Shown: in pieces, positions 460 to 30,603 of the stretch
How positions within the stretch are numbered: the stretch's first letter is position 1
Layout: each line of letters opens with the position of its first letter
Assembly: GCA_040755395.1 (NCBI GenBank)
Contig: JBFMAX010000001.1
Location: forward strand, 124,001 to 188,000
Reading direction: 5' to 3'
Length of the DNA stretch: 64,000 bases
From: Nitrospirota bacterium
GTDB taxonomy: Bacteria > Nitrospirota > Nitrospiria > Nitrospirales > Nitrospiraceae
The notes under the pieces: generated by a model
Database searches by the model: none
What the model was told of the DNA's origin: nothing
Seen by the model: only the letters and a program-made list of their open reading frames with translations
Made by a program: the position numbers and the translations under genes

Positions 460-2199
460 ATGTGTCTCAGGAACAAGAGGATCACAGGATGGCCGGCGGC
501 GGCCCTACCAGCCCGGCTACTCGCCGTGCTTGCGGCGCTGCTCCTGTTCACATTCGCGCCGACACCCGAGCCGGCGGCGGCCGGATCGACGGTCGGCTTT
601 CTCGTCGTCGCCCCTGACCGAGGATTTTTAGGCAACCAGGAAATCCGCGCTGTGTTCGACGAGTTCGCGCAACACTATGCGCCGGCGGCGCTGGCCTGGG
701 TCGGGCGGGATTACAACGGGATGGGGAGCGAATACTCCGACTATCTCAGCCGGGCGCTGGCCGACCTTGAGCGCGGCGGCGCGACGGAGATCGTGGCGAT
801 TCCGCTCTTTGTCTCCGCCTCGGACCCCGTTTTGCAGAAGGTCGTGGCCCATCTGCCCGCCTATGCACGAACCGGAACCATTCGGTGGGCCGAGCCGATG
901 GTCTCGAGTCACCTCATCCGCCAAATCCTGTTGGATCGCGCGATGGCAGCGAGCCGTGACCCGGAGCATGAACGGCTCCTGCTGGTCGGATTCGGCGCGA
1001 CCGACGAAGCCGGAGAGGCGGCCATGCGCCGCGACCTGGAACGGTACCTGGCCTACATTACGCAGTACCTCCGTTTTCGAGAAACCAGGGCCGTCCTCTA
1101 CTACGACCGCTCCGCACCGGACGCCGAACGGAACAACAAGGCGGCGGATCAGGTGATTGTCGAAACCGCCGCCAAGAAGGGACGGACGCTGCTGGTCCTG
1201 GCTACGATCGGCCCGAAATTTGATCAGACGATGGCGCTGACGCACTGGTTCGGCGACAAGCTGCGCGACTGGAACATCGCCTATGTCGCGGAAGAACTCC
1301 TGCCCCACCCCAACGTGCTGCTGTGGCTGAAGAAGACCGCCAACGCCTTTCTGCCGGCGTCTCCGGCAGAAATCGGCGTCGTGATCATGCCGCACGGCGC
1401 CACCCAACCGTGGAACGACGCCGTGGAGCGCGCGATCGCGCCGCTGCGCCCCCGTTACCGGATCCAGATGGCCTATGGGATGGGCGATCCTGCCGTGATT
1501 CAGCAGGCCGTCGAGCGATTGGAGCGGCAAGGGAGCCGGCGCATCGTGTTCGTGCGCATGTACGCCCTCGCTCACCATCTGAAACACCGCATCGAATACC
1601 TGCTCGGCCTCTCCGATTCACCGGAGCCCGAGGGCCGACACAGTGGACACGATCGGGAAACGACCCCTCCGGCGCAAATTCGAAGCGCGGCGCTCTTCGC
1701 CACGTTCGGCGGATACGAGGAAGACCCGGGCATCGCCGAGGCGCTCCACGAGCGGATTCAGGAAGTCAGTCGCGACCCGTCGCAGGAGACCGTGATCCTC
1801 GTCGCGCACGGCGACAAGCGCGATGAGGACAACGCGCACTGGCTCTCGGTCATGCAGGCCAACATCGAGCGGCTGAAGCGCGATCCCCACTGCGCCAAGC
1901 TGAGAGCGATTGAGGCGGCCACGGTCCGCGAGGACTGGCCGGCGCTTCGGGAGCGCGCCGTCGGCGACATCAGGAGCCTGATCGAAGCCCACGCGAAAAC
2001 CGGACGGGTGCTCGTGATCGCCGACCGGCTCTATGGGGCGGGACCGTACCGGAAGCTGTTCGACGGGTTGGAGTACGTGCTGAACGACAAGGGGCTCGTG
2101 CATCCCGCGCTGACCCGCTGGCTCGAAGCCGGGATCAATCAGGCGATTTCGGTCCTGACCCGACCGGTTTCCGCCATCGATCGCGTTGCAAAGCCCTGA
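460..2199 (+). CDS. secreted multi-domain CbiX/sirohydrochlorin-chelatase-like protein
   Basis: About 579 residues. A basic N-terminus and hydrophobic stretch (residues 17-34) ending near PAAAG look like a signal peptide, so the protein is probably exported. The rest is made of repeated chelatase-type half-domains, with strands VGFLVVAP (45-52), LLLVGFGA (173-180), GVVIMPHG (306-313) and VILVAHG (445-451). Only the last two keep the His-Gly that in CbiX/CbiK enzymes marks the metal- and porphyrin-binding site, so the N-terminal pair looks degenerate. Known relatives insert Co, Ni or Fe into tetrapyrroles in the cytoplasm, so an exported version may instead bind metal or haem (inference). The ATG at 460 has GGAG 12-15 bases upstream. 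In-frame starts at 370 and 415 lack a ribosome site, and the start remains uncertain. Short Cys-rich genes follow closely. Confidence 0.7.
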   Translation: MCLRNKRITGWPAAALPARLLAVLAALLLFTFAPTPEPAAAGSTVGFLVVAPDRGFLGNQEIRAVFDEFAQHYAPAALAWVGRDYNGMGSEYSDYLSRALADLERGGATEIVAIPLFVSASDPVLQKVVAHLPAYARTGTIRWAEPMVSSHLIRQILLDRAMAASRDPEHERLLLVGFGATDEAGEAAMRRDLERYLAYITQYLRFRETRAVLYYDRSAPDAERNNKAADQVIVETAAKKGRTLLVLATIGPKFDQTMALTHWFGDKLRDWNIAYVAEELLPHPNVLLWLKKTANAFLPASPAEIGVVIMPHGATQPWNDAVERAIAPLRPRYRIQMAYGMGDPAVIQQAVERLERQGSRRIVFVRMYALAHHLKHRIEYLLGLSDSPEPEGRHSGHDRETTPPAQIRSAALFATFGGYEEDPGIAEALHERIQEVSRDPSQETVILVAHGDKRDEDNAHWLSVMQANIERLKRDPHCAKLRAIEAATVREDWPALRERAVGDIRSLIEAHAKTGRVLVIADRLYGAGPYRKLFDGLEYVLNDKGLVHPALTRWLEAGINQAISVLTRPVSAIDRVAKP

Positions 2200-2223
2200 G
2201 ACGGGAATACAGGAGGGATCGCG

Positions 2224-2451
2224 ATGACCTGTCCGAAATGCCGAGGCCTGCTGGTGATCGAACGGTCTTTAGACTTCTACGCGCGCACGGGCGCATGGCG
2301 ATGCATCAACTGCGGCGAGGCTCCGTCCGGTAGACCTTCGGTGTTGCCGGACTTGCGTACGCCGGTTCATCAGCGCCGTCGCGCTCCAACGATTCCGGTT
2401 CCCGCCGAATCGGGGGAGAGGCGCCGTGCGCGGCGCGACAACGTGGGATGA
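2224..2451 (+). CDS. small zinc-ribbon-like protein
   Basis: 75 residues with a strong ribosome site (AGGAGGGATCGCGATG). CPKC at residues 3-6 and CINCG at about 28-32 form a two-knuckle zinc ribbon. The remaining Arg/Pro-rich tail is low complexity and resembles no fold I recognise, so the true ancestral protein may be only about 45 residues, with the tail being read-through after an old frameshift. It sits 24 bp after the chelatase-like gene and just before a thioredoxin-fold gene, within a run of small same-strand genes. No specific function can be assigned. Confidence 0.6.
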   Translation: MTCPKCRGLLVIERSLDFYARTGAWRCINCGEAPSGRPSVLPDLRTPVHQRRRAPTIPVPAESGERRRARRDNVG

Positions 2452-2464
2452 GGGAGGACAGTCC

Positions 2465-2950
2465 ATGTTGCTCATCGGCCAACGCGCTCCTCGGTTCCGA
2501 GTGCCGGCGTTACGGGACGGAGCGTTGACGTATCTGGATTCCGCCGGAATGCACGGCCGCTGGGTGGTCCTGTGCTGCTTGCCGAGGCTGAGCCTGGTCG
2601 AGGCGACCATCGTGGACCGTCAAGGCGCCGCTTTCACCTGCTACGGGGCCGATTTTCTCGCCGTCGCGCCTGAAGATCGTGCATTGCGGCGGCCATGGCT
2701 CGGCAGGCTCGGCGCGTTGCGGGCGCCCCTCCTGGTCGACCCCTTGCGCCGCCTTCACCGCGCCTACGGCCTCGTCCAGGACCAGACTCTGACCCGGTGC
2801 CGGACTTTCTTGATTGATCCGGACGGTCTGCTCCGTTTCCATTTGGTACACGATCTGACCGGCCGAGGCCTGAGCGCGGTCACGGAAATCCTGCGCCTGT
2901 TCCAACACCGACAGGCGCCGGCTCTGAGGCATTCGTTTGGAAGGAGGTGA
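2465..2950 (+). CDS. peroxiredoxin-like (AhpC/TSA fold) protein, probably non-catalytic
   Basis: 161 residues from an ATG preceded by GGGAGGACAGTCC; an upstream in-frame GTG at 2426 has no better ribosome site. The N-terminus (IGQRAPRFRVPAL, then RWVVLCCLPRLSL) and the later TFLIDPDGLLRF follow the AhpC/TSA peroxiredoxin pattern. The region where active peroxiredoxins carry PxxxTxxC reads LPRLSLVEAT, with no Cys at the peroxidatic position. The nearby CC is in the preceding strand. It is therefore probably a structural relative or one using another thiol (inference). It lies 3 bp upstream of the next small Cys protein, suggesting co-translation. Confidence 0.65.
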   Translation: MLLIGQRAPRFRVPALRDGALTYLDSAGMHGRWVVLCCLPRLSLVEATIVDRQGAAFTCYGADFLAVAPEDRALRRPWLGRLGALRAPLLVDPLRRLHRAYGLVQDQTLTRCRTFLIDPDGLLRFHLVHDLTGRGLSAVTEILRLFQHRQAPALRHSFGRR

Positions 2951-2953
2951 ACG

Positions 2954-3169
2954 ATGCAGAAGGGTTTGAGAAGCACCGGGCGGGCGACGCTGAATGTCTG
3001 CGGATGCGGTCGGCTCCATGTGACCTACGGGCCGATCACTCTGCATTTCGAGCCGGAAGAGTTTCTCACGTTCGGGGAAGCCGTGACTCAGTTGGTCGAT
3101 CAATTTCGACGGATCCAACGCGATCAGCTCGTTCCGTCGCCGCCCGGACACGAGACGGTCTGCCATTAA
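2954..3169 (+). CDS. small conserved protein with CxC-G-x2-H motif
   Basis: 71 residues with a near-perfect ribosome site (AAGGAGGTGAACG before ATG). The motif CGCGRLHVTYGPITL (about residues 16-30) has two Cys and a His that could bind a metal. It is followed by an acidic FEPEEFLTFGEAV segment and a helix with QLVDQFRRIQRD. It resembles small proteins I associate with Nitrospira genomes, but I know of no characterised member. It begins 3 bp after the peroxiredoxin-like gene ends, so the two are probably translationally coupled. Function unknown. Confidence 0.6.
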   Translation: MQKGLRSTGRATLNVCGCGRLHVTYGPITLHFEPEEFLTFGEAVTQLVDQFRRIQRDQLVPSPPGHETVCH

Positions 3170-3183
3170 GGGAGGAACGTCTG

Positions 3184-3360
3184 ATGAACATTCGCGAATG
3201 CCCGCGTTGCCGCCAACACAGCCTGGTCCCCACCGGGGCGTTTTGGGCCTGTGCAAGCTGCGGCTACGCCATCACCGGTTTCGCGCTGGCGGTCGAATTG
3301 AGGGTCGCCTCAAGAAGAGAAGCCGCCGCGCGTATCACTGCGACGGAGAAAGGATTCTGA
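3184..3360 (+). CDS. small zinc-ribbon protein
   Basis: 58 residues starting at an ATG preceded by GGGAGGAACGTCTG. CPRC at residues 6-9 and CASCG at about 23-27 make a two-Cys-pair zinc ribbon, similar in layout to the protein encoded at 2224. The rest is a short hydrophobic strand and a basic tail. The longer frame from 2947 overlaps the preceding gene and has no ribosome site, so the short version is preferred. It is one of four tiny genes in a row, and the shared metal-ligand theme suggests a common redox or metal role (inference). Confidence 0.55.
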   Translation: MNIRECPRCRQHSLVPTGAFWACASCGYAITGFALAVELRVASRREAAARITATEKGF

Positions 3361-21772: not shown

Positions 21773-22843
21773 CTACACGAGATTGCGCGCAATCGCGTCC
21801 CCCATTTCAGCCGTTCCCACGATCCTGGCCCCCGGACCGGCGATGTCCTTGGTCCGATAGCCCAGATCCAGCGTCTTGACGATGGCCTGCTCGATCGCTT
21901 CCGCTTCCTTGTCCAGATTGAACGTGTAGGAGAGCATCATCGCCGCCGACGCGATGGTCGCGATGGGATTGGCGATGTTCTTCCCGGCGATATCCGGCGC
22001 GCTGCCGTGAATGGGCTCATAGAGGCCGGCATGGGCGCCGAGGCTGGCCGACGGAAGCATGCCGATGGAGCCGGTCAGCATGGCCGCCTCGTCGCTCAGG
22101 ATATCGCCGAACATGTTGTTGCAGAGCAGCACGTCGAACTGCTTCGGGTTCCGGATCAACTGCATGGCGCAGTTGTCGACGTACATGTGCGTCAGCTCCA
22201 CATCCGGATAGGCTTGGTGAACCTCCGTGACCACGCGCCGCCACAACTCGGACGACTCCAATACGTTCGCCTTGTCCACCGACGTGACCTTCTTACGCCG
22301 TTTGCGCGCCGCGGCGAACGCGATCCTGGCGATGCGTGCGATCTCTTCCGTCGTATAGACCTCGGTGTTGACGCCCCGCTCGCCGCCGGGAATTTTTTCG
22401 ATGCCTTTCGGTTTGCCGAAATAAATCCCTCCGGTCAACTCCCGAACAACGAGCAGGTCGATGCCCTCGATGACCTCCCGCTTCAGCGTCGACGCGTCGG
22501 CCAGCATCGGATAGAGTTTTGCCGGACGCAGATTGGCGAACAGGCCGAGCTGCTCCCGCAGCCCCAACAGCGCTCGTTCCGGACGGAGACTGTACTCGAG
22601 CCCTTCCCACTTGGGACCGCCCACCGCCCCGAGCAGCACGGCATCGCTGTGCTTCGCCAATGCCAGGCTCTCTTGCGGCAGCGGGACGCCGACTTTGTCG
22701 ATCGCCTGCCCGCCGATGTCCCCGGCGACGAATTCGAACGTATGTCCGTACCGTTCCGCGACGGCTTTGAGCACTTTGACCGCTTCGGGCACGATCTCCC
22801 GGCCGACGCCGTCGCCGGCCAACACCGCAATCCTCGCTCTCAA
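21773..22843 (-). CDS. leuB: 3-isopropylmalate dehydrogenase
   Basis: 356 residues. NAD-dependent oxidative decarboxylation of 3-isopropylmalate, third step of leucine synthesis. It starts with [20 protein letters not shown] and contains [41 protein letters not shown] and [19 protein letters not shown], all LeuB signatures. The start is TTG at 22843, supported by GAGGAGGAATCG immediately upstream; the longer frame reaching 23227 overlaps the cupin gene out of frame. leuC and leuD are not in the window. Confidence 0.97.
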
Positions 22844-22907
22844 CGATTCCTCCTCTTTTTGAGCCCCTTCCTCATCGCCGCGTGCCCCTTCGCCTCTCGC
22901 CCAGCTA

Positions 22908-23438: not shown

Positions 23439-24986
23439 TCAAATCAAGCTCACCTTCTGCGCGCCATCGGCCTGTTTGGACGCCCAGAACGCGAGCTTGT
23501 TCAAGGCATTCAGGTACGCCCGTGCGGACGCCACGATGATATCCGTGTCGGCCCCATGCCCCGACACGGTGCGCCCTCCTTCTTCGAGCCGCACCGAGAC
23601 TTCGCCCTGCGCGTCCGTCCCGCCGGTGATGGCCTTGACCGCATACATCAGCAGTCGGCTCTTGGTCTGCGTCATCGCCGCGATGGTCCGATAGACGGCA
23701 TCGACCGGCCCGTCCCCGGTGCCCGTTTGTTTGACCAGGCGGCCGTCGATTTCCAACTCGACCGTGGCGGTCGGAATCTTGTCGGTGCCGCTCTCGACGT
23801 GCAGCCATTTGAGCGCCACCCGCTCCCAGATCTTCGCGATCTCCTCGGAGACGATCACTTCGAGGTCTTCCTCGTAAATCTCTTTCTTCTGATCGGCCAG
23901 ACGCTTGAACCGATCGAAGGCGCGGTTGATCTCCTCCTCCGTCAACGTGTACCCGAGTTCCTCCAGCCGTTGCCGGAAGGCATGCCGGCCCGACAACTTG
24001 CCCATGACCAGTTTGCTGTCCACCAGACCGATGGATTCCGGCCGCATGATCTCGTAGGTGGTCTTCTCCTTCAGCAACCCGTCCTGATGAATGCCGGACG
24101 TGTGCGCGAAGGCATTGGCCCCAACGATCGCTTTGTTCGGCTGGACCACCATACCGGTGATTTTGCTGACCAGGCGGCTTGTCTTGGAGATCTCCTCTGT
24201 GTTGATCCCGGTGTCGGCGCCGTAGAAGTCCTTGCGCGTCCGCAAGCCCATGACGATCTCTTCCAGCGCGGTGTTGCCGGCCCGCTCGCCGATGCCGTTG
24301 ATGGTGCACTCGACTTGTCCGGCGCCCTCCAGCACGGCGGCCAAACTGTTGGCCACCGCCAACCCCAGATCGTTGTGGCAGTGGACGGAGATCACCGCCT
24401 TCGAGCTGTTCGGCACCTTTGCCCTGATCCCGCGAATGAGCTTGCCGAACTCCTGCGGGACCGCGTAGCCCACCGTGTCGGGAATGTTGATCGTGCCGGC
24501 CCCCGCCTCGATCACCGCTTCCAAGACTTCGTACAAATAGGACGGATCGGACCGGCTGGCGTCCATCGGCGAGAACTCCACGTCGTCCACGTAGCCCCGC
24601 GCGCGCCGGACCATTTCGACGGCCCGTTTTTTCGCTTCCTCCCGCGTCATCCTGAACTGGTATTTCAAATGGATGTCCGAGGTCGAGAGAAACGTATGGA
24701 TGCGGACCTTGGGCGCGCCTTTCAGGGCCTCCCACGCGCGGTCGATGTCCTCGGGCCTCGCCCGCGCGAGACTGCAGATGATGGGCCCTTCGACTTCCTG
24801 GGCGATCCGCCGCACCGCTTCGAAATCGCCGGGAGAACTGTACGCGAAGCCGGCTTCGATGATGTCCACCCCCAACCGGGCCAGTTGCTTGGCGATCATC
24901 ACTTTTTCTTCCACGTTCATGCTGGCTCCCGGCGACTGTTCGCCGTCCCGCAACGTCGTGTCGAAAATCCGAATCATCCGTGTCAT
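23439..24986 (-). CDS. leuA: 2-isopropylmalate synthase
   Basis: 515 residues. It condenses acetyl-CoA with 2-oxoisovalerate, the committed step of leucine synthesis. [16 protein letters not shown] at the N-terminus and [17 protein letters not shown] hold the metal- and substrate-binding residues of the HMGL-like TIM barrel. The C-terminal regulatory domain (from about 395, [16 protein letters not shown]) carries leucine feedback. Regulation is also by RNA: a leucine T-box with its terminator ends about 97 bp upstream. The ribosome site AAGGAGAGGGG precedes the ATG. Confidence 0.98.
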
Positions 24987-25004
24987 GTCGGCACCCCTCT
25001 CCTT

Positions 25005-25066
25005 GAGCGAGCAGCCGACAGCGAGCAGCCCATCGCTCCGGAGCTATTGGCTACGCGCTATCCGCC
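25005..25066. repeat. family A repeat between T-box terminator and leuA
   Basis: Contains two GCGAGCAGCC units followed by GAGCTATTGGCTACGCGCTAT, partly self-complementary. It lies within the leuA 5' untranslated region, downstream of the T-box terminator. Confidence 0.55.
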
Positions 25067-25082
25067 GGCGCGTTTCGCTCGG

Positions 25083-25124
25083 AAAAAACAAAAGCCTCCA
25101 TCCCGTTTTCAGGGACGAAGGCTT
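25083..25124 (-). terminator. T-box-controlled intrinsic terminator
   Basis: Minus strand AAGCCTTCGTCCC, TGAAAAC, GGGATGGAGGCTT, then TTGTTTTTT. The 5' arm lies directly after the T-box sequence, which competes for it in the antiterminated form. Confidence 0.9.
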
Positions 25125-25370
25125 CACGCGCTCCGTGGTACCACCCTGATTCAGCGACCGGCTCGAAGGTCACAGGTCGGTCGCCCTTCATTGCACCCGT
25201 CTCGTGGGTGAGGCGGGGTCCGCTACCCAGGACGCCTCTTGCGAGTCATGTGAACCGCAATGGGCGCCCGTTCACGGGCCCGGCTCGGAGGCGAGTTCGG
25301 CGAATCACGGGTTGGTTCGCACCGGCCACCAACTCTCTCGATTCCGTGCGGATCGCCTACTACTCCTCGT
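25083..25370 (-). promoter_or_regulatory. leucine T-box riboswitch controlling leuA
   Basis: Read on the minus strand, the leader shows every T-box landmark. The T-box itself, AGGGTGGTACCACGG, is at 25147-25133. The distal Stem I block GAGAGAGTTGGTGGCCGG is present. The specifier loop has AGTAGTA on one strand and GAACTC on the other, flanked by paired GAGG/CCTC and GGCGA/TCGCC. The specifier codon is CTC (25295-25293), leucine, matching the downstream leuA. Stem III is GCGACCG/CGGTCGC. The leader ends in an intrinsic terminator. Uncharged tRNA-Leu should stabilise the antiterminator and switch leuA on. Confidence 0.93.
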
Positions 25371-25378
25371 CGTCGCCG

Positions 25379-26185
25379 TTATTCTTTTCTGTCCAACAGC
25401 GCCAAATCGGCCTTGGCCTGGCCGCCGCGCTTTCCGAACGCCTTCGCCAGCCATCCGAAGCCGCGCTCGACCGGCCCCGACACCGCGTACGCGGCAAAGA
25501 TAACAAATAACATGACCTGAGGCCAAGCCATCACCAGCATGAGCCCGAGGATCACCCAGACCAGGTAATTGAAGTGGCGGCCGCCTCTGAACTTCAGATC
25601 CTTGAAGCTGCGATACTTGATCGTGCTGACCATGAGAAACGCCAGCGTCAGCGTGATGATCAGGATCAGCAATGGCTTGACCTCGGCGCCCATCCGGACG
25701 ATGTGATGGTCGAAGATGACCAGTGAGGCGACCACCCCGGCTGCGGCCGGAATGGCCAGACCCGTAAAGTATTTGCTGTCGGTGTTGGCGACGGTCGAGT
25801 TGAACCGAGCCAGGCGAACGGCCCCGAGGGCCACATAGGCGAACATCACCGCCGCCCCGAACATGCCCTGCCCGCTGAGCGCCCACGAATAGATCAACAG
25901 ACCCGGCGCCACCCCGAACGACACCACGTCGGCGAGCGAATCGTACTCCAGGCCGAACTGGCTCGTGCTGTTCGTCAACCGCGCCGACTTGCCGTCCAAG
26001 ACATCGAACACCATCGCCACCAGGATCGCGACCGCTGCCGCGATATAGTTGGCGTTAAAGACCGCGAGAATGGCAAACACGCCGCAACAGAGGTTCCCGG
26101 TCGTGAACAGGTTCGGGATCAAATTGACGGCGCGCCGCCGCTTGCCATACTTCGCGAGCGCCCCGCGGAATCCGGTTCCTTTCAT
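25379..26185 (-). CDS. pssA: CDP-diacylglycerol-serine O-phosphatidyltransferase
   Basis: 268 residues, integral membrane CDP-alcohol phosphatidyltransferase with several hydrophobic helices. The catalytic signature runs DVLDGKSARLTNSTSQFG followed by YDSLADVVSFGVAP, carrying the conserved Asp residues and DG-AR. It makes phosphatidylserine, the substrate of the Psd encoded just upstream. Its ATG at 26185 overlaps the psd stop (ATGA), which excludes the longer frame. Its stop lies about 10 bp before the T-box leader, so leuA begins a separate regulated unit. Confidence 0.94.
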   Translation of the reverse strand: MKGTGFRGALAKYGKRRRAVNLIPNLFTTGNLCCGVFAILAVFNANYIAAAVAILVAMVFDVLDGKSARLTNSTSQFGLEYDSLADVVSFGVAPGLLIYSWALSGQGMFGAAVMFAYVALGAVRLARFNSTVANTDSKYFTGLAIPAAAGVVASLVIFDHHIVRMGAEVKPLLILIITLTLAFLMVSTIKYRSFKDLKFRGGRHFNYLVWVILGLMLVMAWPQVMLFVIFAAYAVSGPVERGFGWLAKAFGKRGGQAKADLALLDRKE

Positions 26186-26832
26186 CGGAGTTCTCCCAAG
26201 ACGGTCTCGCCGCCTTTGACCCGGTCGCCCACAGCCACGCGCAGCGCGGTGCCCACCGGCAGAAACGTGTCCATCCGCGAGCCGAACCGGATCAATCCGA
26301 ACCGTTCCCCGCGCCGGACCACCTCGCCCGGAGACACCCAGCACACGATGCGGCGCGCGATCAAGCCCGCCACTTGCACGCAGAGCACCTTCGCGCCGCC
26401 GGCGGTCCTGAGCATGAGCGCGTTCTGTTCGTTCCTCAACCCGGCGTCCGGCCGGTTGGCGGCCACGAAGCGGCCCGGCTGATAGACCACGTCTTCGACC
26501 GTTCCCTCGCAGGGAATCCGGTTGACGTGGACATCGAAGATATTGAGAAAAATGCTCAGCCGGATGCTCCGTTCCTTGAGGAATCGCGGCTCGTACTCTT
26601 CGTCGATGGCGATGATCTTGCCGTCTCCCGGAGCGACGATCAGCCCCGGTTCTTGCGGGATCGTGCGCCGGGGGTTCCGGAAGAACCACGCGGTAAAGAG
26701 CGTGAGCGCGCTGAACACCGCCGCGCCGACCGGCCAACCCAGCCACCCACAGGCGAGTGTAAGACCGCCCGCCGTTCCCACAAAGGGAATTCCGTCTTGG
26801 ACTATCGGCATGCCGGCGGCGCGATCAGCCAT
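26182..26832 (-). CDS. psd: phosphatidylserine decarboxylase proenzyme, short form
   Basis: 216 residues, the compact Psd class. It cleaves itself at Gly-Ser in RFGSRMD (about residue 187-189) to make the pyruvoyl cofactor, then converts phosphatidylserine to phosphatidylethanolamine. Further marks are VVAPGDGKI-like IVAPGDGKIIAID and FLNIFDVHVNRIPCEG with the conserved His. Two hydrophobic segments near the N-terminus anchor it to the membrane. It is 7 bp downstream of ilvC and coupled to pssA. Confidence 0.94.
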   Translation of the reverse strand: MADRAAGMPIVQDGIPFVGTAGGLTLACGWLGWPVGAAVFSALTLFTAWFFRNPRRTIPQEPGLIVAPGDGKIIAIDEEYEPRFLKERSIRLSIFLNIFDVHVNRIPCEGTVEDVVYQPGRFVAANRPDAGLRNEQNALMLRTAGGAKVLCVQVAGLIARRIVCWVSPGEVVRRGERFGLIRFGSRMDTFLPVGTALRVAVGDRVKGGETVLGELR

Positions 26833-26839
26833 GGCGCAA

Positions 26840-27856
<1,017 letters not shown>

Positions 27857-27864
27857 TCACTCCT

Positions 27865-27954
27865 CGTAATCCGTGAAACGTGATGCGTAATCCGTGATGG
27901 GTGGCGAGACTACGGTCCGATCCTCCGGAACCGATCACGCATCACGGATCACGT
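27865..27954. repeat. family B palindromic intergenic repeat
   Basis: Units CGTAATCCGTGAAACGTGAT and GCGTAATCCGTGATGG face ATCACGCATCACGGATCACG, so the whole 90 bp can fold on itself around a central CGGTCCGATCCTCCGGAACCG. It fills the ilvN-ilvC gap. Confidence 0.6.
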
Positions 27955-27958
27955 GGCT

Positions 27959-28477
27959 TCATTCCTTTGCAACCCGTTTCGGCTGAGCGGCGGCCGGCCT
28001 GATGGGTTCTCGGGCGATGGCGACTCGCCCGGTCCTGATCAGTTCCTTGATGCCGAGCGGCTGGAGCAGGTTGATGATCGCTTCGATCTTCTTGGGATCG
28101 CCCGTCACTTCGATCGTGTAGGTCGTCGGCGTGGAATCGATGACGTTGGCGCGGAAGATGTCGGCGATCCGCAGGGCCTCGGCACGGTCCTCGGCCCTGG
28201 TATGGACCTTGATGAGCGCCGTTTCACGCGACACGAACTCGCTCTCGTTGAGGTCCACCACCTTGATGACGTCGATGAGCTTGTTGAGCTGCTTGACGAT
28301 CTGCTCGATGATCCGGTCGTCGCCCGAGGTGACGATCGTCATCATCGACATCGACGGGTCGAGAGTCGGCGCCACCGACAGGCTCTCGATGTTGAAGCCT
28401 CGTCCGCTGAACAGCCCGGCCACGCGAGAGAGCACGCCGAACTTGTTTTCCACCGTAACGGAGATGATGTGTTCCAT
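27959..28477 (-). CDS. ilvN: acetolactate synthase small (regulatory) subunit
   Basis: 172 residues: N-terminal ACT domain (HIISVTVENKFGVLSRVAGLFSGRGFNIESL, with typical ACT spacing) and a C-terminal ACT-like domain (about 80-160). It binds valine and confers feedback control on the IlvB catalytic subunit encoded upstream. Length is that of the common bacterial form. The last few residues (about 163-172) are Pro/Ala/Lys-rich and variable. Confidence 0.97.
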   Translation of the reverse strand: MEHIISVTVENKFGVLSRVAGLFSGRGFNIESLSVAPTLDPSMSMMTIVTSGDDRIIEQIVKQLNKLIDVIKVVDLNESEFVSRETALIKVHTRAEDRAEALRIADIFRANVIDSTPTTYTIEVTGDPKKIEAIINLLQPLGIKELIRTGRVAIAREPIRPAAAQPKRVAKE

Positions 28478-28481
28478 CTTG

Positions 28482-28555
28482 AGCGAATGGCGAACAGCGA
28501 GCAGCGAATAGCCGATAGCTCGGAGCTCCCGGCTATTCGCTATTCGCTGCTCGCT
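28482..28555. repeat. family A repeat forming a long hairpin in the ilvB-ilvN gap
   Basis: The arms GCGAGCAGCGAATAGC (28497-28512) and GCTATTCGCTGCTCGC (28539-28554) are perfectly complementary over 16 bp. Further units GCGAATGGCGAACA and GGCTATTC surround them. It occupies most of the 81-bp gap inside the operon. Confidence 0.7.
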
Positions 28556-28558
28556 TGA

Positions 28559-30334
28559 TCACGCAGTCAGCACCGTATCTTTATCTTCCGGCGTCACCGG
28601 CGACGGCGCCGCTTGCTTCTTCTTCAGCTCCGGCGGATCGGCCAGGATCATTTCATGGTTGCAGCCGCCGGCCGGAATCATCGGATAGCAGTTTTCGTAC
28701 GGGTCCACCGGCACATCGACGACCACCGGCCCGTTCACGGCAAGGGCTTCCTTGAGCACGCCGTCCAAGTCCGCGACCTTCTCCGCCCGCAGGCCGACCG
28801 CCCCATAGGCTTCCGCCAACTTGACGAAGTCCGGCACCACGTCCAGGTAGCTCGACGCGTATCGCCCTTCATAGAACAGGTCCTGCCACTGGCGCACCAT
28901 CCCGTGGAACCGGTTGTTAATGACGACCAGCTTCACCGGCAGCTTGTTGACGACGGCCGTCGCCATCTCCTGCATATTCATCTGCACGCTGCCGTCGCCG
29001 GCGATGCACAGAACCAGCCGGTCGGGAAAGGCCGCCTGGGCGCCCAACGCGGCGGGGAACCCGAACCCCATCGTGCCCAGTCCCCCCGAGGTCAGCCACC
29101 GGTTCGGCTTGGCCAGTTTGAAATATTGCGCCGTCCACATCTGATGCTGGCCCACATCAGTCGACACGATCGGATCGCGATCCTTGGTCAACTCGTAGAG
29201 CCGTTTGATCACATGCTGCGGCTTGATGGGCCCCTGCGGATCCTGTTCGTAGGTCAGAGGGTGGGCCTTCTGCCATTCGTGTATTTGATCCCACCACGGT
29301 TTCCGAAGCTCTTTCTGATCCCCGTTCACCGTCGCCCGCAGGATCTGAATCAGCTCCCGCAACACCCGTTGGCAATCGCCCACGATCGGGATGTCGACAT
29401 GAATGTTCTTCCGGATCGAGGTGGGATCGATATCGATGTGAATGATCTTGGCATAGGGACAGAACTCCGAGACTTTTCCGGTCACCCGGTCGTCAAAGCG
29501 CGCGCCGACCGCGATCACCAGATCGGAATAATGAACCGCCATGTTGGCCCAATAGGTGCCGTGCATCCCCATCATGCCCAGACAGAGGGGATGCTCGCCG
29601 GGAAACGCGCCCAGAGCCATCAGGGTCATATCGACCGGGATCTGGGTCAGTTCGGCCAACTCCAACAATTCCTTCGACGCGCCGGAGAAAATCACCCCGC
29701 CGCCGACGTACAGGACCGGCTTCTTGGCCTTCATGATCGCTTCAGCCGCCTGCTTGATCTGCCACTTGTTCCCGTCGTACGTCGGGTTGTAACCTCGGAT
29801 CGACACCGAGTTCGGGTAATGGAAGTCGGCCTTGTTCATCGACACATCCTTCGGAATGTCGACCAAGACCGGGCCCGGCCGTCCGGTGGTGGCGAGATAG
29901 AAGGCTTCCTTGATCGTGACCGCCAGGTCGTTCACATCCTTCACCAGGAAGTTGTACTTGGTGCAGGGCCGGCTGAGCCCGACGTTGTCCGCTTCCTGAA
30001 ACGCGTCGTTTCCGATCAGGCTGGTCGGCACCTGTCCGCTGAAGCAGACCAGCGGCACGGAGTCCATATAGGCGTCGGCCAGGGCGGTGATCACGTTGGT
30101 CATGCCCGGCCCGGACGTGACGAGCGCGACTCCGGCCTTGCCGGTGGCCTTGGCATAGCCTTCGGCCATGTGTCCGGCGCCCTGCTCATGCCTGGTCAGG
30201 ATGACCTGAACGTCCTTTTGCTGATGCAGGATATCGAAGATCTTCAAGACGACCCCGCCCGGCAACGCGAAGATGGTCTTGACCCCTTCGCGGCGGAGGC
30301 ATTCGACAAAGATCTCTGCACCGGTGAGCTTCAT
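28559..30334 (-). CDS. ilvB: acetolactate synthase large (catalytic) subunit
   Basis: 591 residues, thiamine diphosphate enzyme condensing two pyruvates (or pyruvate and 2-oxobutyrate). The N-terminal TPP domain has FALPGGVVLKIFD and the catalytic Glu in LTRHEQGAGHMAEGYA; the C-terminal TPP domain has GDGSVQMNMQEMATAV followed by VINN. The ATG at 30334 follows GGGGGGAGTT, so the seven-residue upstream extension is rejected. It starts the ilvBNC operon. An antisense frame of 594 residues is an artefact. Confidence 0.98.
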   Translation of the reverse strand: MKLTGAEIFVECLRREGVKTIFALPGGVVLKIFDILHQQKDVQVILTRHEQGAGHMAEGYAKATGKAGVALVTSGPGMTNVITALADAYMDSVPLVCFSGQVPTSLIGNDAFQEADNVGLSRPCTKYNFLVKDVNDLAVTIKEAFYLATTGRPGPVLVDIPKDVSMNKADFHYPNSVSIRGYNPTYDGNKWQIKQAAEAIMKAKKPVLYVGGGVIFSGASKELLELAELTQIPVDMTLMALGAFPGEHPLCLGMMGMHGTYWANMAVHYSDLVIAVGARFDDRVTGKVSEFCPYAKIIHIDIDPTSIRKNIHVDIPIVGDCQRVLRELIQILRATVNGDQKELRKPWWDQIHEWQKAHPLTYEQDPQGPIKPQHVIKRLYELTKDRDPIVSTDVGQHQMWTAQYFKLAKPNRWLTSGGLGTMGFGFPAALGAQAAFPDRLVLCIAGDGSVQMNMQEMATAVVNKLPVKLVVINNRFHGMVRQWQDLFYEGRYASSYLDVVPDFVKLAEAYGAVGLRAEKVADLDGVLKEALAVNGPVVVDVPVDPYENCYPMIPAGGCNHEMILADPPELKKKQAAPSPVTPEDKDTVLTA

Positions 30335-30603
30335 AACTCCCCCCTTGCTCCCCACCGCCTCAGACCTGAGACAAACAGGGCACCCGCCGGCGCGTAGCGA
30401 GAGATGACGCCCGGCAATCTCTCCGATCTTACTGAAAAATCAATGACTAAGATGGGCGATGGTACCATCGCCCACCGGCGGCGTCAATAGGAATGACGGC
30501 GAGCCGGAGAAAAACGGCTCGATGACAGTCTCTACCGCTTCGTGCTAGGCTCCGATCCCCGACCTGCCGGTCAGGCAAGGTTCGATTCAGACAGATACGC
30601 GCG
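30335..30603. other. ilvB upstream region, no gene
   Basis: The 269 bp between ilvB (minus) and the glutaredoxin-like gene (plus) must hold both promoters. I see a 20-bp perfect palindrome at 30454-30473 and an AT-rich patch beside it, but no convincing -35/-10 pair. Confidence 0.5.
30454..30473. promoter_or_regulatory. perfect 20-bp palindrome upstream of ilvB
   Basis: GGGCGATGGTACCATCGCCC is fully self-complementary and is followed on the minus strand by an AT-rich segment. It could be an operator for a dimeric regulator of the ilv genes or part of a hairpin. About 120 bp from the ilvB start. Confidence 0.4.

Follow-up and report, generated by a model that had tools for sequence, protein, structure and literature searches.

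The window analysed here, a stretch of 64,000 nucleotides from a genome of the Nitrospirota, carries a gene for 2-isopropylmalate synthase (leuA) on its minus strand, before which a leucine T-box riboswitch had been proposed in a preliminary description. T-box leaders of this type are well known in Gram-positive bacteria. The questions raised by this locus are whether such a leader indeed stands before leuA, which tRNA it would sense and from which promoter it would be transcribed.

Structure of the leader upstream of leuA

According to sequence inspection and covariance-model search, positions 25377-25086 (minus strand) form a complete T-box leader whose true extent is about these coordinates. 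In a permissive scan of 24950-25500 (551 bases), the T-box model RF00230 was aligned end to end (model positions 1-219) at 25382-25108 on the minus strand, with a score of 78.9 bits and an E-value of 1.7e-17. The Rfam gathering score for RF00230 is 93 bits, which is an annotation threshold and corresponds to no mechanistic feature. The element is absent from the default Rfam scan of the window because its score sits under this cut-off. The covariance-model check proposed in the preliminary description was therefore passed on the E-value and failed on the Rfam cut-off. All structural domains of the class I leader were nonetheless aligned, and the window differs from the model by its sub-threshold score and by a long insertion in Stem II, which is a likely cause of that score. 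Genome-wide, RF00230 detected this T-box as the only one in 4.1 Mb. The regulated genes proposed and the parts of the leader are as follows.

23439..24986, minus strand: leuA, 2-isopropylmalate synthase, the proposed regulated gene (NF002086, 815.6 bits; TIGR00973, 751.8 bits)
21773..22897, minus strand: leuB, 3-isopropylmalate dehydrogenase, likely co-controlled (TIGR00169, 529 bits); found after leuA in most family members
25282..25377, minus strand: Stem I, with base GGC/GCC, GAGG/CCTC, specifier loop, middle and upper helices, AG bulge and distal loop (RF00230 alignment, helix check, covariation in helices 3-5)
25293..25295, minus strand: specifier triplet CUC (Leu), in GAA-CUC-G (25298-25292) opposite AGUAGUA (25358-25364); GAA-CTC kept in nearly all homologues
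25216..25281, minus strand: Stem II, with a long apical insertion specific to the window; 95.7% of cells paired and double-sided changes at six of seven pairs in 43 homologues
25154..25184, minus strand: Stem III, a 7-bp helix GCGACCG/CGGTCGC; double-sided changes at six of seven pairs
25111..25147, minus strand: antiterminator with T-box sequence and UGGU bulge, the partner of the tRNA ACCA end; AGGG/CCCT paired in 100% and ACGGAG/CTTCGT in 97.7% of cells
25086..25124, minus strand: intrinsic terminator, a 13-bp hairpin (25124-25092) followed by a T-tract; predicted at -21.3 kcal/mol, with 96.6% of cells paired among homologues, overlapping the antiterminator 3' strand

The long Stem I is recognized by the AGAGAG and GGTGCGAA motifs, which correspond to the AG bulge and the distal loop, and by the helix GTTGG/CCAAC. 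The T-box sequence AGGGTGGTACCACGG lies at 25147-25133 (minus strand), and the antiterminator with its UGGN bulge is paired in 97.7-100% of cells. All the landmarks that had been noticed from the sequence (T-box, Stem I features, AGTAGTA opposite GAA-CTC, Stem III and terminator) were thus recovered on the minus strand.

The structure was evaluated on 43 aligned Nitrospirota homologues, redundancy having been removed. The proposed partners pair in 94.0% of cells, against 82.7% in shuffles and 32-48% (maximum 48.2%) when the partners are slid. Double-sided changes occur at 27 of the 46 pairs and amount to 235 cells, against 70 in shuffles; they are the fairest part of the covariation test, given that the pairing scheme comes from the window itself and that the aligned rows are related.

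Specifier, predicted tRNA partner and proposed terminator switch

The specifier CUC at 25295-25293, confirmed as previously read, calls for the anticodon GAG. Five tRNA-Leu genes were found in the genome (UAG, CAA, UAA, CAG and GAG), including a single tRNA-Leu(GAG) gene whose 3' end, ACCA, is complementary to the UGGU bulge. The leader combines a codon for the amino acid of the pathway with a cognate tRNA encoded in the same genome. It lies upstream of a bona fide leuA, as the preliminary description had it. All homologues have GAA-CUC apart from three genomes, belonging to two genera (loci L017, L022 and L173), where GAA-CUG is found. A tRNA-Leu(CAG) gene is present in all three, located in one of them (G163) on a small contig, and these variants consequently stay within leucine. 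Three further rows flagged as non-CUC by pattern search turned out to be off-site matches, and their GAACTC was found.

A relic T-box that has lost its switching, leaving leuA under constitutive transcription, could account for the score under the Rfam cut-off and for the window-specific insertion and the single C-A mismatch in Stem II. This is very improbable in view of the compensatory changes across the helices and of the family-wide conservation of the specifier loop, the T-box and the terminator. The presence of the cognate tRNA and the CUG specifiers, confined to leucine and matched by tRNA-Leu(CAG), also argue against decay.

All but the last base of the antiterminator 3' strand (25120-25111) also belongs to the 5' arm of the terminator (25124-25112), and the two helices therefore exclude each other. 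The energies predicted without tRNA, in a calculation that ignores co-transcriptional folding, are -21.3 kcal/mol for the terminator and -6.8 to -12.8 kcal/mol for the antiterminator, and the terminator is accordingly favoured in the absence of tRNA. This arrangement points to transcription attenuation. Class II T-boxes, which act in translation, occur in Actinobacteria (PMC7778990), and a leader of this kind would operate on the leuA ribosome-binding site. Such a mode is very improbable here, since a strong terminator with its T-tract lies about 100 bases 5' of leuA and the leuA Shine-Dalgarno sequence is outside the switch. The terminator helix is moreover paired in 96.6% of cells across the aligned homologues.

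In the transcription attenuation reading, whose tRNA contacts are those of established T-box biochemistry, the anticodon of uncharged tRNA-Leu(GAG) would pair with the CUC specifier and the tRNA elbow would dock onto the distal loop of Stem I. The free ACCA end would then pair with UGGU in the antiterminator bulge. The antiterminator would thereby be stabilised and the polymerase would read into leuA-leuB. A charged tRNA would be unable to make the ACCA-UGGU contact, and the more stable terminator would form.

Position of the element relative to pssA and the putative ilvB promoter

Upstream of the leader, the minus strand carries the following features.

25379..26180, minus strand: pssA, start approximate (TIGR00473, 122.6 bits), stop codon at 25381-25379
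26182..30355, minus strand: ilvB, ilvN, ilvC and psd, which would head the proposed transcript; gene order conserved
30459..30487, minus strand: putative sigma-70 promoter for the ilvB operon (TTGACG-17-TACCAT); a score of 9/12 within 200 bases upstream of ilvB in 74 of the 76 genomes scanned in the family

Stem I begins one base past the pssA stop codon in the window, and in many members of the Nitrospiraceae, the window included, it starts at most about 15 bases from this stop codon. Promoters were searched for as matches to the sigma-70 consensus (out of 12) over 200 bases upstream of the T-box and, separately, of ilvB in 76 Nitrospiraceae genomes. The mean score was 6.9/12 before the T-box, against 6.6 for intragenic DNA, and 8.9/12 before ilvB. 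No promoter signal above the intragenic level was thus found before the T-box in these genomes with this consensus scan. Such a result is no proof that a promoter is absent, and Nitrospira promoters may deviate from consensus.

The same T-box could therefore be an ordinary promoter-proximal leader, transcribed from a leuA promoter of its own inside or just after pssA. Precedents exist: a near-consensus sigma-70 promoter (10-11 of 12) lies about 50 bases before the T-box in each of five loci from the LeuA clade of the Geobacteraceae and in each of four members of another Nitrospirota family. This arrangement is nevertheless unlikely in the family of the window: upstream of the T-box the scan gives scores at the intragenic level, while it finds the conserved site before ilvB, and in many members Stem I starts very close to the pssA stop codon. 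Because Stem I abuts this stop codon, and because a promoter signal is conserved before ilvB and lacking before the T-box, the Nitrospiraceae element is probably not a promoter-proximal leader and probably gates leuA-leuB inside an ilvBNC-psd-pssA-leuA transcript.

We consequently interpret the element, with a probability of roughly 90%, as a class I leucine T-box with a long Stem I, acting by transcription attenuation through uncharged tRNA-Leu(GAG) before leuA-leuB and apparently inside the ilvBNC-psd-pssA-leuA transcript. The structure, the specifier and its cognate tRNA, the mutual exclusion of terminator and antiterminator, the conservation and the lack of a consensus promoter are read from sequence and comparison; switching in this organism and the shared transcript are what we infer. 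With moderate confidence, the element can further be viewed as an operon-internal checkpoint: the transcript from the ilvB promoter would carry ilvBNC, psd and pssA, and the switch would decide whether the leucine-specific genes are transcribed too. When leucine is sufficient, the genes for valine/isoleucine and phospholipid synthesis would stay on and the leucine-specific genes would be cut off. Ribosomes terminating at the pssA stop codon could even influence the folding of Stem I, which starts one base later.

The preliminary description had the T-box driving leuA; the switch does precede the gene, while the promoter of its own that this wording implied gave no signal and the element apparently lies within the longer transcript. 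The ilvBNC genes were correctly described as lacking a similar leader, for neither the default Rfam scan nor the genome-wide RF00230 search yielded a T-box before ilvB in the window. The proposal that the pathway is controlled only at leuA does not follow, as the ilvB promoter may be regulated by a protein factor, and the statement that the T-box stands in place of a peptide attenuator had as its sole basis that none was seen. A perfect palindrome, GGCGATGGTACCATCGCC (30455-30472), covers the -10 region of this putative promoter. It was considered as an operator, but no such role is proposed, since the genome contains no other exact copy and the palindrome was not seen in the relatives examined.

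Distribution and comparison with known T-boxes

Among 396 Nitrospirota genomes searched with RF00230, 125 gave a match, which exceeded 93 bits in 58 genomes; about half of these elements fall under the Rfam cut-off and go unannotated. With family membership read from the kinship order of the genome list, 108 of the 110 genomes of the family of the window carry a T-box, one element each, and none was found in the sister family of the same order. Outside the family the distribution is patchy, matches being found in another two families within the class and in three within the phylum. Wherever the fetched locus reaches leuA, the match precedes it; in three loci (L020, L146 and L204) the contig ends downstream of pssA, short of leuA, and the element of genome G317 is divided between two contig ends (L205 and L206). 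Within the family of the window, two genomes are cut short of leuA in this way, and every contig long enough shows pssA-[T-box]-leuA. In most cases the order is ilvB-ilvN-ilvC-psd-pssA-[T-box]-leuA. The named relatives are Nitrospira genomes, and the nearest named LeuA loci are 85-92% identical, which bears out the description of the genome as Nitrospira-like. A tRNA-sensing T-box is therefore a near-universal, fixed trait of the family to which Nitrospira belongs, a group of Gram-negative nitrifiers.

Several variants were observed among these loci. A repeat that occurs at several intergenic sites of Nitrospiraceae loci is inserted in Stem I between specifier loop and AG bulge in L177, L178, L186, L190-L194, L196-L198, L202 and L205, and related copies lie between terminator and leuA in other loci. 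In L200, L203 and L204, Stem I has an additional hairpin in its distal loop region. In another family of the same class (L170, L181, L189 and L195, before leuA), Stem I measures merely 49-54 bases and lacks the AG bulge and distal loop; a terminator-like hairpin with a T-tract follows, and these loci have their own near-consensus promoter.

Outside the phylum, a leuA T-box was reported in Geobacter sulfurreducens and Pelobacter carbinolicus (PMC2494555), and that of Geobacter was predicted to sense tRNA-Leu(GAG) (PMC2700814). It resembles the element of the window in its gene, predicted partner and transcription attenuation, and Stem I, the specifier flank (GAACUCGCCU) and the T-box core are very similar. 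In contrast, the Geobacteraceae loci show a near-consensus promoter immediately upstream of the T-box, whereas none was seen in the window, where the element directly follows pssA. This provides a testable contrast between the same switch in a promoter-proximal (Geobacter) and an apparently operon-internal (Nitrospiraceae) position. In the LeuA tree, where row L066 is mislabelled as T-box-free (this locus is truncated on the upstream side, and a T-box is present in the genome), the trait is clustered, yet several gains or losses are needed, and the LeuA proteins of the Geobacteraceae carriers fall in a different clade from that of the window. The trait may have been inherited vertically and lost in places, or may have been passed between phyla (Bacillota, Geobacteraceae and Nitrospirota). 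A survey of 2013 listed T-boxes in Firmicutes, Actinobacteria, Chloroflexi and Thermus/Deinococcus, plus Geobacter, and did not list the nitrifier group (PMC3766115). No earlier report of a Nitrospirota T-box was found in the literature searched, whose coverage falls short of two main reviews and of the TBDB and Rfam alignments.

Leucine T-boxes of Bacillota, such as that before the leuS-like gene of Thermosyntropha (L305), share the CUC specifier and a similar Stem I core with the window. They differ by the regulated gene and by their number, several being present per genome (nine in G435) against one in the genome of the window. In Thermosyntropha lipolytica (L289, positions 245-320, and L305) and in a Syntrophomonadaceae genome (L288, positions 248-322), a complete tRNA-Ala(GGC) gene is located inside the Leu(CUC) T-box leader, between Stem II and the antiterminator. 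The gene following this leader in Thermosyntropha is a leuS-like open reading frame (leucyl-tRNA synthetase; L305, positions 855-3332).
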